Source of the DNA: an uncultured Methylophilaceae bacterium
Lineage (GTDB): Bacteria; Pseudomonadota; Gammaproteobacteria; Burkholderiales; Methylophilaceae
Assembly (NCBI GenBank): GCA_905618945.1
Contig: CAJQTF010000003.1
Location: forward strand, 1-57,219
Length of the DNA stretch: 57,219 nucleotides
Direction of reading: 5' to 3'
Shown here piece after piece: positions 17,668-41,684 of the stretch (positions are counted from its first letter, which is position 1; each line of letters begins with the position of its first letter). Below the pieces are notes generated by a model that was not told where the DNA came from, made no database searches, and saw only the letters and a list, made by a program, of their open reading frames with translations. The translations under genes and the position numbers were made by a program.

Positions 17668-18828
17668 ATGAAAATTTATTTAGTTGGTGGGGCTGTTAGA
17701 GACAAAATAATGGATATTCCAGTTAATGATAAAGACTATTTAGTCGTAGGCAGCACCCCTGAAGAGATGGTTAAATTAGGCTACAAACCTATCGGAAAAA
17801 ATTTTCCTGTATTTTTACATCCTAAAACTAAAGAAGAATATGCACTTGCAAGAACAGAGAAGAAAGTTGGCAAGGGTTACCATGGATTTAAGTTTTATAC
17901 ATCACCCGATGTAACTCTTGAGGAAGACTTAAGTAGAAGAGACATTACGATAAATGCAATAGCCGAAGATGAAGATGGGAATATCTATGACCCATTCAAT
18001 GGTAAAGATGATATAAAAAATAAGATTATTCGACATGTTAGCGATGCTTTTATCGAAGATCCTTTAAGGGTTCTTAGGGCGGCTAGATTTTCAGCATTAG
18101 ACGTAAAATTTAGGATCCAGACAGAAACATTAGAATTGATGAGCGCGATGGTATTAAGCGGTGAGCTAAAGTCCCTATCATTAGAACGAGTAGTGGCAGA
18201 AGTTGGAAAAGGGTTGGAAGGAGAAAATCCAGATATTATGCTTCATTACCTTTGTGAATGTGGGGCTTTGAATGAAGTTTTCTTGGACCATCCCCATTGG
18301 AGACCTTCTTTTTCTGAAGATTTTGTTAGCTTAGGGTTGGCTATGAAGAAATTCCCAAAACCTTTGGCTGCTGAATCTAAATTAATCATGTTGCTACTGG
18401 TTCCATATTTTGGTAAACATTACTTACCTGAGTCCCGTAAAATTTGGGTAGAGAAACAAACATATTTATTAAAAGACTTAAAAATATCGAGCCTGTCAGT
18501 TAAGATATTTTGGAATATTATAGATGAAGAGCTAAACCTTAAACAGTTTTTAACATTAACAGCAGAAGATAAATTGGATTGTTTATATCGACTTGACTTT
18601 TTTAGACGCCCAAATATTATTTCAGAGATTTTGAATATAATCGCGGTATTTTATAAAGCATTTGAAATAAAGGCCCCAACATTTGAAAACCTTAATAAAC
18701 TCATAGTTCTTTTTTCTAATGAAATAAATCAATTAAAAAGTGAGTTAGATACTTCAAAATCTGGGGGTGAAATTAAGGAAGTTGTTTATCAGGAGAGGCT
18801 TTCTCTTATTAAAAAAATTAGTCAGTAA
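17668..18828 (+). CDS. cca: tRNA CCA nucleotidyltransferase, HD motif not seen
   Basis: Adds or repairs the 3' CCA end of tRNAs. The class II nucleotidyltransferase head is intact: V-G-G-A-V-R-D at about 6-12, N-D-K-D-Y metal ligands, E-Y-A-L-A-R-T-E, then R-R-D-I-T-I-N-A-I-A and D-P-L-R-V-L-R-A-A-R-F. At 386 residues it is a little shorter than the bifunctional proteobacterial form of about 410. Where that form carries an HD phosphohydrolase motif, none is visible, so the 2',3'-phosphatase activity is probably lost. The 3' end overlaps the convergent HAD gene by 11 bases. Confidence 0.92.
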   Translation: MKIYLVGGAVRDKIMDIPVNDKDYLVVGSTPEEMVKLGYKPIGKNFPVFLHPKTKEEYALARTEKKVGKGYHGFKFYTSPDVTLEEDLSRRDITINAIAEDEDGNIYDPFNGKDDIKNKIIRHVSDAFIEDPLRVLRAARFSALDVKFRIQTETLELMSAMVLSGELKSLSLERVVAEVGKGLEGENPDIMLHYLCECGALNEVFLDHPHWRPSFSEDFVSLGLAMKKFPKPLAAESKLIMLLLVPYFGKHYLPESRKIWVEKQTYLLKDLKISSLSVKIFWNIIDEELNLKQFLTLTAEDKLDCLYRLDFFRRPNIISEILNIIAVFYKAFEIKAPTFENLNKLIVLFSNEINQLKSELDTSKSGGEIKEVVYQERLSLIKKISQ

Positions 18829-19435
18829 TTAAATCTTTTAATTTAGATATTTTCTTATCAATATATGAAGGACTTTCTTTTTCATTAGTTAGCCATATTG
18901 TAGATAACCCAAATTTATTAGCTGTTTCAAGATTCTCTTTTACATCATCTACAAAGTAAGCCTTTTTAATTTTATATTTTTTTAGAAAAAATCTCATTGA
19001 AATTTCACTTGGTTTTGCTAAAAAATTACAATCTTCTATACTAAAAATTTCATCAAAGTAACTTTCAACCTCACATGCCTTAAGCACTCTTCTTGTGTAA
19101 GCTCTAGGCGCATTTGTGTAAAGTATCTTTTGACCATTTATTGAAGATAATACTTTTATTAAACCTTGCATAGGTATAACTAAATCTTTGAAATTTTTAA
19201 GTGTGTGAGTTTTTTCTAAAAAGTCTGTTGGGCTAATATCATGGTGCCTAATTAATCCTTCTAATGTAGCTCCGTAATGATCCCAATATTTTTGTCGAAG
19301 TACATCAGCTTCTCTAAGATTAATTTTTACTCTTTTACTGATGTATCTATTAATTTTTTTATTAATTAAAGGGAATATTCTTTTTTGCGCATCATGCAGT
19401 GTATTATCAAGGTCAAATATCCAAGTATCTTCCAA
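18818..19435 (-). CDS. HAD-family pyrimidine 5'-nucleotidase-like protein
   Basis: HAD phosphatase of 205 residues. Motif I is F-D-L-D-N-T-L at 7-13 with the nucleophile Asp8 and acid Asp10. Motif II is around L-Y-T-N-A-P-R, and motif III-IV is K-P-S followed by F-V-D-D-V-K-E-N. The family, often called pyrimidine 5'-nucleotidase (SDT1-like), commonly sits next to argB in betaproteobacteria, as recalled from family knowledge. It starts one base after the argB stop and is the last gene of that operon. Confidence 0.87.
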   Translation of the reverse strand: MEDTWIFDLDNTLHDAQKRIFPLINKKINRYISKRVKINLREADVLRQKYWDHYGATLEGLIRHHDISPTDFLEKTHTLKNFKDLVIPMQGLIKVLSSINGQKILYTNAPRAYTRRVLKACEVESYFDEIFSIEDCNFLAKPSEISMRFFLKKYKIKKAYFVDDVKENLETANKFGLSTIWLTNEKESPSYIDKKISKLKDLITD

Positions 19436-19436
19436 A

Positions 19437-20294
19437 TTATTGATCCTTAATTAGAGTGCCAACACCTTGATCAGTTAATATTTCCAGTAATAATGCATGC
19501 TCAACTCTACCATCAATAATATGCACAGTATTCACTTCATGCTTAGCAGCATGCACTGCAGAGTTTATTTTAGGAAGCATACCTTCAGATATGGTTCCAT
19601 CTTCTATTAGCTTTTTAATTTCTTTGGGAATTAGCCCTGTAATTAGATTATTTTTTTTATCTAAAACCCCTTTTGTATTAGTCATTAGTACTAATTTTTC
19701 AGCATTCAAAATCTCTGAAAATTTTGAAGCTACAACATCAGCATTTATATTGTAAGTTTTGTTATCACTACCTATTCCAATTGGTGCAATGATTGGTATG
19801 ATTCCATCATCTTTAAGTTCTTTCATAAAGGATGGGTCGATACTCAATATTTCACCTACATAACCAAGATCAATTAATTTTCCTTGAACTTGTAATTTTT
19901 TAGCTTTGATAATTCCTATTTTATTTTTGTTGCTATAGCTATTAGCATCCCCACCATTTTCTTTTATCAGTAAAACAATTTCCTTATTGATCTCATTTAA
20001 GACATTTGCAACGATTCCCATAGTTTCTTCATCGGTAACCCTTATTCCTTCAACAAATGAAGGTTTCTTCCCTAATGCATCTAGGGAATCATTTATTTGG
20101 GGGCCTCCGCCATGAATAATCACTGGATTCATTCCAACTAATTTAAGGAGTACTACATCTTTAGCAAATGACCGTTTTAACTTAGCATCAACCATAGCAT
20201 TCCCGCCAAATTTAATAACAATTGTTTTACCAAAAAATTTTTTAATGTAAGGAAGTGCCTCGCTTAAAACCTTTGATTTTTCGTTTGGAGTCAT
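19437..20294 (-). CDS. argB: Acetylglutamate kinase ArgB
   Basis: Second enzyme of arginine synthesis, phosphorylating N-acetylglutamate. Amino acid kinase fold with I-K-F-G-G-N-A-M at about 28-35, the substrate loop I-I-H-G-G-G-P-Q-I near 59-67, N-I-N-A-D-V-V-A and an ATP-site K-I-N-S-A-V-H-A-A. The N-terminal stretch before the kinase core resembles the helix found in arginine-sensitive hexameric enzymes, so feedback inhibition is plausible. Length 285 is normal. It lies 3 bases after argA and one base before the HAD gene. Confidence 0.95.
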
Positions 20295-20297
20295 ATT

Positions 20298-21836
20298 TTA
20301 TAACCTTTTGATAAAGTATTTAGAGTTTCGTTCGACAGTATAGGTTTTCTTTCTTTCATCGGGTATAAATTTTCTATCTGTTAAGGAGAAATTATTCTCT
20401 ATAAACCAATGTTCCGATTGAGTTGTAAGTGTAAATAATTTATTTATATTTTTATTTATGGCAGTTTGCTCACAAAATTTTAATAATTTTTTCCCATAAC
20501 CTAGATTTTGATAATTTTCATGAATTGCAAAGCAAGCCACTTCTATCATTTTGTCATATTGGTATAAAGCAACAGTTCCAATTATATTATGGCCATGCTC
20601 AATAACATAAAATGAGTTTATATCTTTACTAATATCTTTATTTACCCTATCAATGAGAATACCTTCTTTCTCCAATGGTTTAATAATATTTATTATCTGA
20701 TTGATGTCTTTTATTGCTGCATTCCTAATATTTTGAAGGGAATATTCTGTCAAGACTGTCCCAGACCCTTTATCTGTGAATATTTCCTCTATGACTGAGC
20801 CATCAATATTTCTATTTATTAAGTGCACTTTTTCAATATTATTCTTGATTGCATATAAGCTACTTTTAAGTATATTGAAATCATGATAAGAAATAAAAGG
20901 AGCATTGTTTGGATCTTCAATGCTTTCAATCAGATGTCTGGCTTTAGAGATAGTTAATTCTGGAATTAATTCCCCACGAATATTTAAAATTCCATTTGCA
21001 TTTATATAATAAATTAATTTTTCAGCTTTTATTGCTTGTGCTACATGTGCGGCAGTCTGCTCGTAAGATAAATTAAATATATCCCCTATGGGTGAATAAC
21101 CCAGGGGTGAAATAATGACAATTTCTCTATTACTTAACTTATCATTTATAGCATTAGTATCAATTTTTCTTATTTGCCCTGTTAGCTGCATATCTACACC
21201 ATCAATTACACCTAATGGTCTTGCTGTAATAAAATTTCCACTAGATACCTTAATATTACTTTCAAGCATCGGGGACTCCAAGATACCTGAAGATAAAGTG
21301 GCTTCAATATTTGTTTTTATTGTCCCATTTACTGCAACAATATCGTTTAACATTTCTTTTTTTGTTACCCTAATATTTCTAATTAACTCAGTCTTTTTTA
21401 TTTCCTCTTTTAGTTTATTATCAATTTGAGGCCTGATTCCATGTACCAAAATAATATTTATATTCATTGAGTGGAGTAAATTAATATCACAAGCGATTGA
21501 CTTTAATTGATTATCACTAATGACTTCGCCACCAATAGCAATAACAAAGGTCTTATTATTAAATTGATTAATAAACTTTGCAGATAATCTAAAATTTTCA
21601 ACGAAACTCTTGACTTCACTAACCAAATTATTTTGAGGTGAACTTTTGTCAAAAAATACTAATGGAGATACATTTAAAGCTAAAGATAATTTTTCAAGCA
21701 AATTAAAGTTTATATTTAATTCATTTCTCTCAACTCTAGATAGGTTACCGGGATCTAATTTTATACGATTTGCTAAATAAACAAGCGTCATATTTTGTTC
21801 TTGGCGTAATTTTCTTACAATTTGACCTGGATTCAT
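20298..21836 (-). CDS. argA: N-acetylglutamate synthase ArgA with N-terminal XRE helix-turn-helix
   Basis: First enzyme of arginine synthesis, acetylating glutamate from acetyl-CoA. The 512 residues comprise three parts. Residues 1-62 are a clear XRE/Cro-type helix-turn-helix, with a recognition-helix region near L-D-P-G-N-L-S-R-V-E-R. Residues about 80-365 are a classical ArgA amino acid kinase domain, with A-I-G-G-E-V near 100-105, L-L-H-S-M, and V-H-G-I-R-P-Q-I-D. Residues about 370-512 are a GNAT acetyltransferase domain with Q-N-L-G-Y-G at 443-448 for acetyl-CoA. E. coli ArgA is about 443 residues, so the extra length equals the HTH plus linker. Frame is open throughout and ATG 21836 opens directly on the HTH. 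A role in arginine-responsive transcription is inference only. Confidence 0.9.
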   Translation of the reverse strand: MNPGQIVRKLRQEQNMTLVYLANRIKLDPGNLSRVERNELNINFNLLEKLSLALNVSPLVFFDKSSPQNNLVSEVKSFVENFRLSAKFINQFNNKTFVIAIGGEVISDNQLKSIACDINLLHSMNINIILVHGIRPQIDNKLKEEIKKTELIRNIRVTKKEMLNDIVAVNGTIKTNIEATLSSGILESPMLESNIKVSSGNFITARPLGVIDGVDMQLTGQIRKIDTNAINDKLSNREIVIISPLGYSPIGDIFNLSYEQTAAHVAQAIKAEKLIYYINANGILNIRGELIPELTISKARHLIESIEDPNNAPFISYHDFNILKSSLYAIKNNIEKVHLINRNIDGSVIEEIFTDKGSGTVLTEYSLQNIRNAAIKDINQIINIIKPLEKEGILIDRVNKDISKDINSFYVIEHGHNIIGTVALYQYDKMIEVACFAIHENYQNLGYGKKLLKFCEQTAINKNINKLFTLTTQSEHWFIENNFSLTDRKFIPDERKKTYTVERNSKYFIKRL

Positions 21837-21872
21837 ATTGTATTATTTACATATATTGTTATTATTTAGTTA

Positions 21873-21902
21873 ATTATAAGCTAAAAAATGTAATTTATAC
21901 AA
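21873..21902 (-). promoter_or_regulatory. Possible argA promoter overlapping the rsmE stop
   Basis: On the minus strand, a TTGTAT -35-like element (21897-21902) is followed after 18 bases by a perfect TATAAT (21873-21878), about 36 bases before the argA start codon. The stretch from there to the ATG is AT-rich with an ACA/TGT-flanked core near 21850-21860 that could be an operator, though no strong palindrome is seen. Prediction by eye only. Confidence 0.4.
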
Positions 21903-22629
21903 TATCTCCATATTTATATTGTAATATTGACAAAATACACATAGGTGCAGTTTCTGTGCGAAGAATTCTTGGTCCTATTTTGATTGGCGAAAAACCCTTT
22001 TGAATTGAAAAATCTAATTCTTGTTTAGTAAAGTCACCTTCTGGGCCAATTAAAACTTTTATGTCTTGCTTCATGTTGGGAGTAAAATTGTTTAAGGATT
22101 TGGTTGCTTTAGGACTTAAGATTATTTTAGTGTCTTTTTCAGATTCCGTCTTCTCAAGGTATTTAATAATATTTTCTGGCTTGTGAATTGTAGGTATTTC
22201 AGCACGCCCACATTGCTCACAAGCTGCAATACAAACCTGACGCCAGTGCGATAATTTTTTCTCTATTTTTTCATTTTTAATTTTTACTATACTTCTTTCA
22301 CATACAATTGGTTGAATCTCACTGATTCCCAGTTCGGTTGTTTTTTGAATAATCAAGTCCATTTTTTCACTGGAAGTTAGTGCTTGTAAAAGAATTACCT
22401 TTAAATTTGATTCATTTTTAATATTTTTCTTTGATTTAATTGAGACTTCAACTTGACGCTTACTTATTCTTATTACCTGCCCTGTGAAGTCCGACCCATC
22501 GCCATTAAATAAAATTAATTGATCATTAGTTTTTAGACGCATTACTTTTAGCGCATGATGGGCAGCGAAATCATCCATAACTATGGTTTCATTAATATTT
22601 ATGGGTTTAGAATGGTAAAATCTATTCAT
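21895..22629 (-). CDS. rsmE: 16S rRNA m3U1498 methyltransferase RsmE
   Basis: SPOUT-class methyltransferase acting on U1498 of 16S rRNA. An N-terminal PUA-like domain (H-H-A-L-K-V-M-R-L) precedes the trefoil-knot domain, which shows the signatures L-I-G-P-E-G-D-F-T and G-P-R-I-L-R-T-E-T-A-P. Length 244 matches the family. It leads the rsmE-argA-argB-HAD set and is divergent from the thioredoxin-fold gene across 55 bases. Confidence 0.95.
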   Translation of the reverse strand: MNRFYHSKPININETIVMDDFAAHHALKVMRLKTNDQLILFNGDGSDFTGQVIRISKRQVEVSIKSKKNIKNESNLKVILLQALTSSEKMDLIIQKTTELGISEIQPIVCERSIVKIKNEKIEKKLSHWRQVCIAACEQCGRAEIPTIHKPENIIKYLEKTESEKDTKIILSPKATKSLNNFTPNMKQDIKVLIGPEGDFTKQELDFSIQKGFSPIKIGPRILRTETAPMCILSILQYKYGDIV

Positions 22630-40757: not shown

Positions 40758-41684
40758 TCACGCAATTAAAGGTAAGTCGATTTGATCGCTACTTTCTAAC
40801 CCTGCAGTCATATCTCTACACATTTTTAAAAACTTTTTCATACCACTAGTTTGATATTTACTTTTTGGCCATAAGAAATAGAAATAACGATTTAATTGAA
40901 TATTTTTAACATCTAAAGGGACTAAACTCCCCCTTCGAAATGCATCTTTCAAGGCGAGTTTGGAAATACAACCAATCCCAATGCCTGATTCAACTGCACG
41001 CTTAATTGCTTCGGTATGTTCTAATTCAAGCCTTATATTCATATTCTTTTCATTAACACCAAAAACTCGATCAAATGTCTCACGAGTACCTGATCCTTTT
41101 TCCCTTAAGATCCATACTTGTTTAATTAGTTTATTGATACTAATATTTTTTTCTTTCGTAAGCGGGTGATTAGGAGCGCTAAAGATTACAAGTTTATCAG
41201 CTATCCATGGTTGGACTTCAAGGTCTGGATGATCACAATCACCCTCTATCATCCCTAAATCTAACTCATGATTTATAATTTGTTGAACAATAGTCTTGGT
41301 ATTATGAACTTGCAATTTTATATTGCTATCCGGATAAGTTTGTAAAAATTTTGCAACTAACAAGTTAGCTAGATAGTTTCCGATAGTTAAAGTTGCACCA
41401 ATATGCATTTCTCCGAATCCCGAGAGAGCTGAAAGTTCAGATTCAATTTCTTTTGCTCTATCAAGTAACTCTATTGCTTTAGGTAATAATTTCTTACCTG
41501 ACTCATTAATACTTAATGATCTGCCAACTCGATCAAATAATTGCAAGCCAAATTGTCGTTCAAATTCACCAAGAGATGAGCTGGTTGCTGATTGTGACAG
41601 GCATAATAATTTTGAAGCTTTAGAAACGTTATCTAATCGACTTACAGCTACAAATATTTCTAATTGCCTTAATGTGTATCTCAT
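40758..41684 (-). CDS. LysR-family transcriptional regulator
   Basis: 308 residues: an N-terminal winged helix-turn-helix (about 3-62, with S-K-A-S-K-L-L-C-L-S-Q-S-A-T-S) and a substrate-binding effector domain from about 90. R-E-K-G-S-G-T-R in the effector domain resembles the CbbR/YeiE branch. It is divergent from etfBA and directly upstream of the ETF-QO gene, so control of the ETF pathway is a reasonable inference. The effector is unknown. Confidence 0.9.
   Translation of the reverse strand: MRYTLRQLEIFVAVSRLDNVSKASKLLCLSQSATSSSLGEFERQFGLQLFDRVGRSLSINESGKKLLPKAIELLDRAKEIESELSALSGFGEMHIGATLTIGNYLANLLVAKFLQTYPDSNIKLQVHNTKTIVQQIINHELDLGMIEGDCDHPDLEVQPWIADKLVIFSAPNHPLTKEKNISINKLIKQVWILREKGSGTRETFDRVFGVNEKNMNIRLELEHTEAIKRAVESGIGIGCISKLALKDAFRRGSLVPLDVKNIQLNRYFYFLWPKSKYQTSGMKKFLKMCRDMTAGLESSDQIDLPLIA

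Follow-up and report, generated by a model that had tools for sequence, protein, structure and literature searches.

The argA gene of an uncultured Methylophilaceae bacterium encodes an N-acetylglutamate synthase (NAGS) with an XRE-type helix-turn-helix (HTH) domain at its N-terminus. It lies on contig CAJQTF010000003.1, of which the whole analyzed stretch of 57,219 nt is referred to here as the window, in an assembly of 1.0 Mb that is 78% complete. The fusion is real and conserved and is accompanied by a specific promoter signature, and comparison across genomes makes a strong case that the enzyme may control its own gene.

Architecture of the HTH-ArgA protein

The reading frame at 20298–21836 on the minus strand contains no internal stop and translates to 512 residues. 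Pfam HTH_3 matches residues 7–59 (35.6 bits, cut-off 23), AA_kinase residues 95–301, and Acetyltransf_1 (GNAT) residues 401–474. The NCBIfam equivalog NF003641 (amino-acid N-acetyltransferase) covers residues 75–512 with 504 bits against a cut-off of 344, and TIGR01890 matches the ArgA core from residue 78 to 512 with 442 bits against 203. The Pfam and NCBIfam matches therefore describe a complete NAGS plus an N-terminal HTH, and the original prediction that an XRE HTH is joined to an entire classical ArgA proved correct. The features of the gene and its neighbor are:

20298..21836, minus strand: HTH-ArgA fusion gene, 512 residues (open reading frame with domain and family matches)
21651..21836, minus strand: XRE/HTH_3 domain, residues 1–62, five helices in the predicted model (Pfam, conservation, model)
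21729..21752, minus strand: recognition helix, residues 29–36 (conservation and predicted model)
21609..21650, minus strand: variable linker, residues 63–76 (conservation; pLDDT under 50 at residues 65–71)
20742..21608, minus strand: N-terminal helix of the NAGS plus amino-acid-kinase fold, containing the arginine-site residues (Pfam, alignment, model)
20301..20741, minus strand: GNAT (acetyltransferase) domain, residues 366–512 (Pfam, NCBIfam, structure match)
19437..20294, minus strand: argB, acetylglutamate kinase, starting 3 nt after the argA stop codon

A predicted structure of the monomer, calculated from a 35-sequence alignment (mean pLDDT 84), places the helices of the HTH at residues 3–13, 18–24, 29–36 (recognition), 44–54, and 58–61, followed by a poorly defined linker and a long helix (residues 67–92) that runs into the kinase fold. 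Over residues 31–38 of the recognition helix region the family consensus is NLSRIERG and the window protein reads NLSRVERN. Among solved structures the model best matches 3d2p, a Neisseria NAGS with arginine; the enzyme core dominates the Foldseek and VIA lists, which say nothing about the HTH fold. For the arginine site we used the motif E-(L/I)-(F/M)-(T/S)-x-x-G-x-G-T plus a key Lys and Glu. The window protein carries it at E351–T360 (EIFTDKGSGT), and its K273 and E351, which correspond by alignment to Neisseria K201 and E270 (roles as given in the available text of PMC4490483), are invariant in 45 of 45 sequences. The conserved residues support the arginine-binding enzyme first proposed from the window alone. 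By family model, arginine site, and fold the protein is a member of the classical NAGS, with predicted activity; a Pfam search finds no Arg_repressor domain (PF01316) in it. Its closest named relatives are from Methylophilaceae isolates, with L038 91% identical.

Whether translation might instead begin after the HTH, a doubt attached to the original prediction, was tested by comparison. Across 33 sequences less than 85% identical, mean information is 3.59 bits in the recognition-helix region (residues 28–40) and 2.77 in the whole HTH, with 1.50 in the linker, 3.20 in the kinase domain, and 2.97 in the GNAT domain. In the 11 computable sequence pairs (13 tried), dN/dS is 0.03–0.39 for the HTH and 0.02–0.13 for the core, the HTH value being the higher in eight. 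Furthermore, 11 of the 45 genes, from four genera (seven from g1; the window gene is not among them), lack an in-frame ATG, GTG, or TTG in the stretch from helix 4 of the HTH to the ArgA core. Protein-level conservation, low dN/dS, and these start-less genes together argue that the HTH is translated protein and not a mis-called start. Additionally, in 14 small genomes searched at E 0.001, HTH_3 matches besides ArgA number zero in five (G000, G007, G015, G018, G019), one short, weak match in each of G001, G003, G005, and G017, and three to five in each of five g43 genomes, so that some genomes nearly stripped of such regulators have kept the HTH of ArgA.

Distribution and gene neighborhood

A match to the fusion protein was found in 179 of 187 Methylophilaceae genomes, some merely as fragments, with all 24 genera represented, and in 119 of the 119 genomes that are at least 90% complete. 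The N-terminus of argA was read in 45 genomes and then 19 more, from 22 of the 24 genera (all but g36 and g37), and the HTH is present in all 64. Among the listed family matches, 14 begin at residue 59–75; three of these were fetched (G125, G152, G184), and all three carry the HTH, with a longer linker in front of the core.

Outside the family, the order and the class were searched with a profile of the HTH and N-terminal helix. In the order sample (n = 399), all 13 family genomes match over the full length at 112 bits or more, and the next listed match has 62 bits. In the class sample (n = 369), the window's genome alone matches in full, and the next listed match has 56 bits. The fusion was not seen among the matches listed from 386 order and 368 class genomes outside Methylophilaceae, each of which covers the HTH or the core, never both; a strongly diverged fusion could be missed by such a profile. 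The original prediction had set this protein apart from known ArgA enzymes, which it described as lacking DNA-binding domains. In the search of homologues, an N-terminal HTH on ArgA is present in all 64 read in the family and in none of the listed matches beyond it. From these comparisons, the HTH-ArgA fusion is a trait of the family Methylophilaceae and not a peculiarity of the window genome.

Several non-family loci were inspected and rejected. The Vogesella fluminis protein (L087) matched residues 2–512, and its extension is not an HTH. Six others (L044, L048, L049, L052, L060, L063), checked since their match began at residue 40–68 or a long open frame preceded the core, carry no HTH ahead of it either. 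A contig titled Rhodobacteraceae (SAT2; L036) contains an argA stretch 77% identical to that of the window in its best segment, and is probably a mis-binned Methylophilaceae contig.

No ArgR was found above cut-off in the 187 family genomes, where two short matches fall below it, nor in the 78%-complete genome of the window; the expectation that argR might be missing is in agreement with this. LysR-type proteins number two to four per genome in 14 genomes tested, and a LysR-type substrate domain at window positions 40809–41414 (minus strand) is one of four in the window assembly. ArgJ is above cut-off in 15 of 15 genomes tested, and ArgA may therefore only top up the arginine pathway.

Upstream of argA and on the same strand lies a gene that, from its sequence, we take to be rsmE. 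Downstream in the window (17668–19435), a plus-strand frame read as cca and a minus-strand frame for a HAD-like hydrolase converge with an 11-bp overlap, and in 24 of 30 loci a relative of the latter is found downstream of argB. Long open frames had raised the possibility of an argB-HAD fusion, which is absent from the four loci checked. In contig 1 of G029, a 47%-complete genome, the argA and argB matches at 537833–540228 fall into several different frames, a pattern suggestive of frameshifts or faulty assembly.

Paired inverted repeats upstream of argA

Side-by-side reading of argA leaders first brought to notice an inverted repeat, TGY-N7-RCA, that is present upstream of argA in 53 of the 64 genomes and in at least two copies in 38. 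The window leader contains:

21889..21901, minus strand: candidate operator O1, TGTATAAATTACA, whose left half overlaps the -35 position
21839..21851, minus strand: candidate operator O2, TGTAAATAATACA, adjoining the start codon
21873..21878, minus strand: -10 box TATAAT between O1 and O2 (from the sequence)
21897..21902, minus strand: weak -35-like hexamer TTGTAT (3 of 6 positions agree with TTGACA), spaced 18 bp from the -10 box
21920..21932, minus strand: possible third site TGTCAATATTACA in the end of rsmE, 31 bp upstream of O1 (weak, within coding sequence)

The TATAAT is the one that had been pointed out upstream of argA, and the stretch then put forward for protein binding (21837–21905) happens to contain both O1 and O2. 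A promoter scan, for which TTGTAT falls below threshold, omits the argA promoter, and the promoter-like sites it lists are no commoner than in the scan's own shuffles. As the left half of O1 overlaps the -35-like hexamer, part of its conservation may reflect promoter function. The third site may be due to chance because it lies inside rsmE; comparable sites 31–32 bp upstream occur in L004, L005, L013, L097, and L123.

The repeat is strongly concentrated at argA. In the -130 to +20 regions of 45 argA genes there are 90 sites, with at least one in 44 genes and at least two in 33, and other gap lengths (3–6 and 8–12) give 1–11 sites each. Counted over 140 nt plus the start codon of each gene, the sites number 81, compared with 7.9 ± 2.7 in 100 dinucleotide shuffles. 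The rate at argA is 12.4 per kb against 1.1 per kb elsewhere in the same 30 long loci. A stricter form that requires two A/T per side is found 45 times in the 30 argA windows (4.5 kb; present in 26 of 30) and five times in 36.8 kb of other intergenic DNA from these loci. The spacing of 34 pairs is 29–32 bp in 17, 41–42 bp in three, 50–52 bp in 13, and 82 bp in one, placing 33 of the 34 close to three, four, or five helical turns in what are few independent classes. A -10-like pattern lies between the sites in 33 of 34 pairs, although this pattern is loose and often expected in AT-rich DNA. For L110 the start was set at an ATG 12 codons upstream of a TTG, which puts its sites at -58 and -29. 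The subclade of L128, L129, and L130 (G005, G001, G007) differs from its neighbors in a shorter linker, the helix GNLSKIEQG, and a 41–42 bp spacing.

The sites accompany the HTH. Ten outgroups of other families formed the initial HTH-less set, from which two without the search motif were dropped before counting, and the eight remaining argA genes have one TGY-N7-RCA site in 2,640 nt of upstream DNA. Regions upstream of argC, argG, and argJ (16, 15, and 15 loci) have one, two, and four gap-7 sites, similar to other gaps; these genes were therefore set aside as further targets, and a regulon wider than argA may exist beyond the three compared. The gene rsmE does not adjoin argA in seven of 30 loci (L108, L112, L117, L120, L122, L125, L134), and at least one site is kept in six of them.

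The exception, L122, belongs to genus g42 and has no exact site. Owing to it, the 19 further genomes were picked mainly from g42 (14 of 19, with Ser, Thr-Ser, or Gly helices; a twentieth, L230, was too short and was dropped), and just nine of these 19 have an exact site. Fourteen g42 genomes carry Ser at position 30 of the recognition helix; in these, both left half-sites (TTTGY) are preserved and the right ones have mostly decayed. Two g42 members with Gly at this position have two perfect sites each. Over all 64 genomes, at least two exact sites within -110 are found in 35 of 43 with Gly30 and two of 21 with Ser30 (Fisher p = 4e-8, relatedness ignored). Eight Gly30 genomes thus have fewer than two, and L131 and L013 are the Ser30 genomes that retain two. 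On a tree of 45 (midpoint root, outgroups drawn inside, used solely to count changes at residue 30), Ser needs about four changes, at least two of them forced by well-supported branches. The Gly/Ser association is not phylogenetically independent; we regard it as moderate evidence that TGY-N7-RCA is recognized by the fused HTH.

A predicted enzyme-repressor and its relation to known systems

The fusion, the failure to find ArgR, the conserved arginine-site residues, and the conserved repeat pair together make autoregulation the best reading. It is likely, in our judgment, that the protein is a bifunctional enzyme-repressor in which NAGS would repress its own gene, with arginine as the probable co-repressor; we infer that the HTH binds O1 and O2, that control is negative, which ligand acts, and that the core is hexameric. 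The fusion protein would make N-acetylglutamate and repress argA and, in the window genome, argB along with it. Self-repression of an argA-argB operon had been suggested at the outset, and comparison favors the autoregulatory part of that suggestion. The operon part is not general, as argB follows argA within 200 nt in 14 of the 30 loci examined.

The available text of PMC4490483 describes the Neisseria enzyme as a D3 hexamer in which the N-terminal helices of neighbors interlace at the two-fold interface, and in which arginine binds near the end of this helix and moves it as the hexamer contracts by about 20 Å along the three-fold axis. If the ArgA core is hexameric in the same way, pairing of these helices would place the attached HTH domains as pairs on the two-fold axes, well suited to a palindromic site. 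One hexamer could then hold O1 at the -35 position and O2 at the start codon and block transcription, a layout that suits repression. The two sites, which flank the -10 region, are close to being in helical phase, and several HTH pairs would suit two phased palindromes. Three HTH pairs are expected per hexamer, which may be compared with the possible third site at 21920–21932. Arginine is the likeliest signal because of where it binds and what it moves in Neisseria, and it could act as both feedback inhibitor and co-repressor through one conformational change. The complete proposal, that a family without an ArgR-type repressor uses a hexameric NAGS on two or three phased operators, with a single arginine switch for inhibition and repression, is one we hold tentatively and rate at somewhat under an even chance.

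Other explanations fare less well. The repeats might be bound by another regulator, such as a LysR-type protein, with the HTH of ArgA serving a different role. The T-N11-A box of LysR-type proteins does fit TGC-N7-GCA, the 14 genomes tested each encode several such proteins, and site binding by the fused HTH is itself a deduction. Yet HTH-less argA genes are nearly free of sites, argC, argG, and argJ show no excess, the loss of exact sites tracks position 30 of the recognition helix, and sites over the -35 position and by the start codon are the layout of a repressor, which makes this explanation unlikely. We give equally little weight to the idea of the HTH as an activator of argA, or as an activator at O1 and a repressor at O2. 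Restriction-modification controller proteins activate at one operator and repress at another, and the solved HTH sequences nearest to that of ArgA belong to small regulatory proteins such as 3clc, which is listed as a controller; however, controllers are small and free and not fused to enzymes, and the positions of O1 and O2 in the window speak against activation.

It is quite improbable that the HTH has ceased to bind DNA and is retained as an additional assembly or interaction domain. Its position 30 and linker vary, some lineages have degenerate sites, and its dN/dS exceeds that of the core in most pairs, but the recognition-helix region is more informative than the HTH as a whole, and the phased operator pair would need a different explanation. 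We find least credible of all that the fusion is made as two products through an internal translation start or cleavage: in 34 of the 45 genes an in-frame ATG, GTG, or TTG occurs at least once between helix 4 and the core, with an ATG in 18 (raw counts), but the 11 start-less genes from four genera manage without one.

To our knowledge, control of arginine synthesis in bacteria without ArgR is largely open. A survey of 196 proteobacterial genomes reports that many gammaproteobacterial groups conserve ArgR strongly and that other classes lack it, and its available text mentions no Methylo- names (PMC5343134). For one methylotroph family, the enzyme-repressor reading would offer a concrete answer, namely the enzyme itself. 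If it is true, one ligand site on a single protein serves both allosteric inhibition and transcriptional repression, feedback inhibition and repression become one molecular switch, and this switch is the only HTH_3-type regulator found in several of the small, streamlined genomes.

In the literature searched, from which subscription journals were mostly missing, no paper was found that reports an HTH attached to NAGS or to a Methylophilaceae ArgA; domain databases may list such an architecture already. The main text of a NAGS review, as far as available, has 0 occurrences of the term DNA (PMC4490483); PMC5120137 does not mention argin, acetylglutamate, argA, transcriptional regulator, or XRE, and PMC6794327 mentions arginine as residue usage alone. 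The NAGS of Neisseria gonorrhoeae (2r8v, 3d2p) has two domains and no HTH, which the window protein adds. By sequence, the closest solved HTH domains are those of restriction-modification controllers such as 3clc (E about 1e-6), which we take to be C.Esp1396I. Controllers of this type regulate themselves through two adjacent operators, but are free-standing HTH proteins without an enzyme, whereas the fusion HTH sits on ArgA. ArgR likely does the same job, arginine-responsive control of argA, with a domain unrelated to that of the fusion. It is also a hexamer.

The fusion resembles the trigger enzymes of E. coli; it combines an enzyme core and a DNA-binding domain in one polypeptide, and its dual role is predicted. 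The available text of PMC8249747 gives BirA, NadR, PepA, PutA, and PyrH as enzymes that are also transcription factors; none of these five is a NAGS, and the fusion is an XRE HTH on a biosynthetic enzyme with an arginine feedback site. According to the same source, PutA binds solely between putA and putP, a local target like that proposed for the fusion protein at argA. BzdR likewise links an XRE HTH to an enzyme fold, in its case shikimate-kinase-like (PMC3602430, available text). The shikimate-kinase-like C-terminus of BzdR/BoxR is absent from the fusion protein, whose C-terminal part is AA_kinase and GNAT by Pfam, and PRK08154 reaches 16 bits (cut-off 204) through its match to the HTH region. 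The BzdR paper argues for evolution from enzyme to regulator, and its authors rebuilt in the laboratory the gain of a DNA-binding domain by an enzyme. BzdR has lost its enzyme activity and senses benzoyl-CoA (PMC3602430), whereas the fusion keeps the whole enzyme core with its conserved residues, and it represents a natural case of an enzyme with an intact core that has gained a DNA-binding domain.
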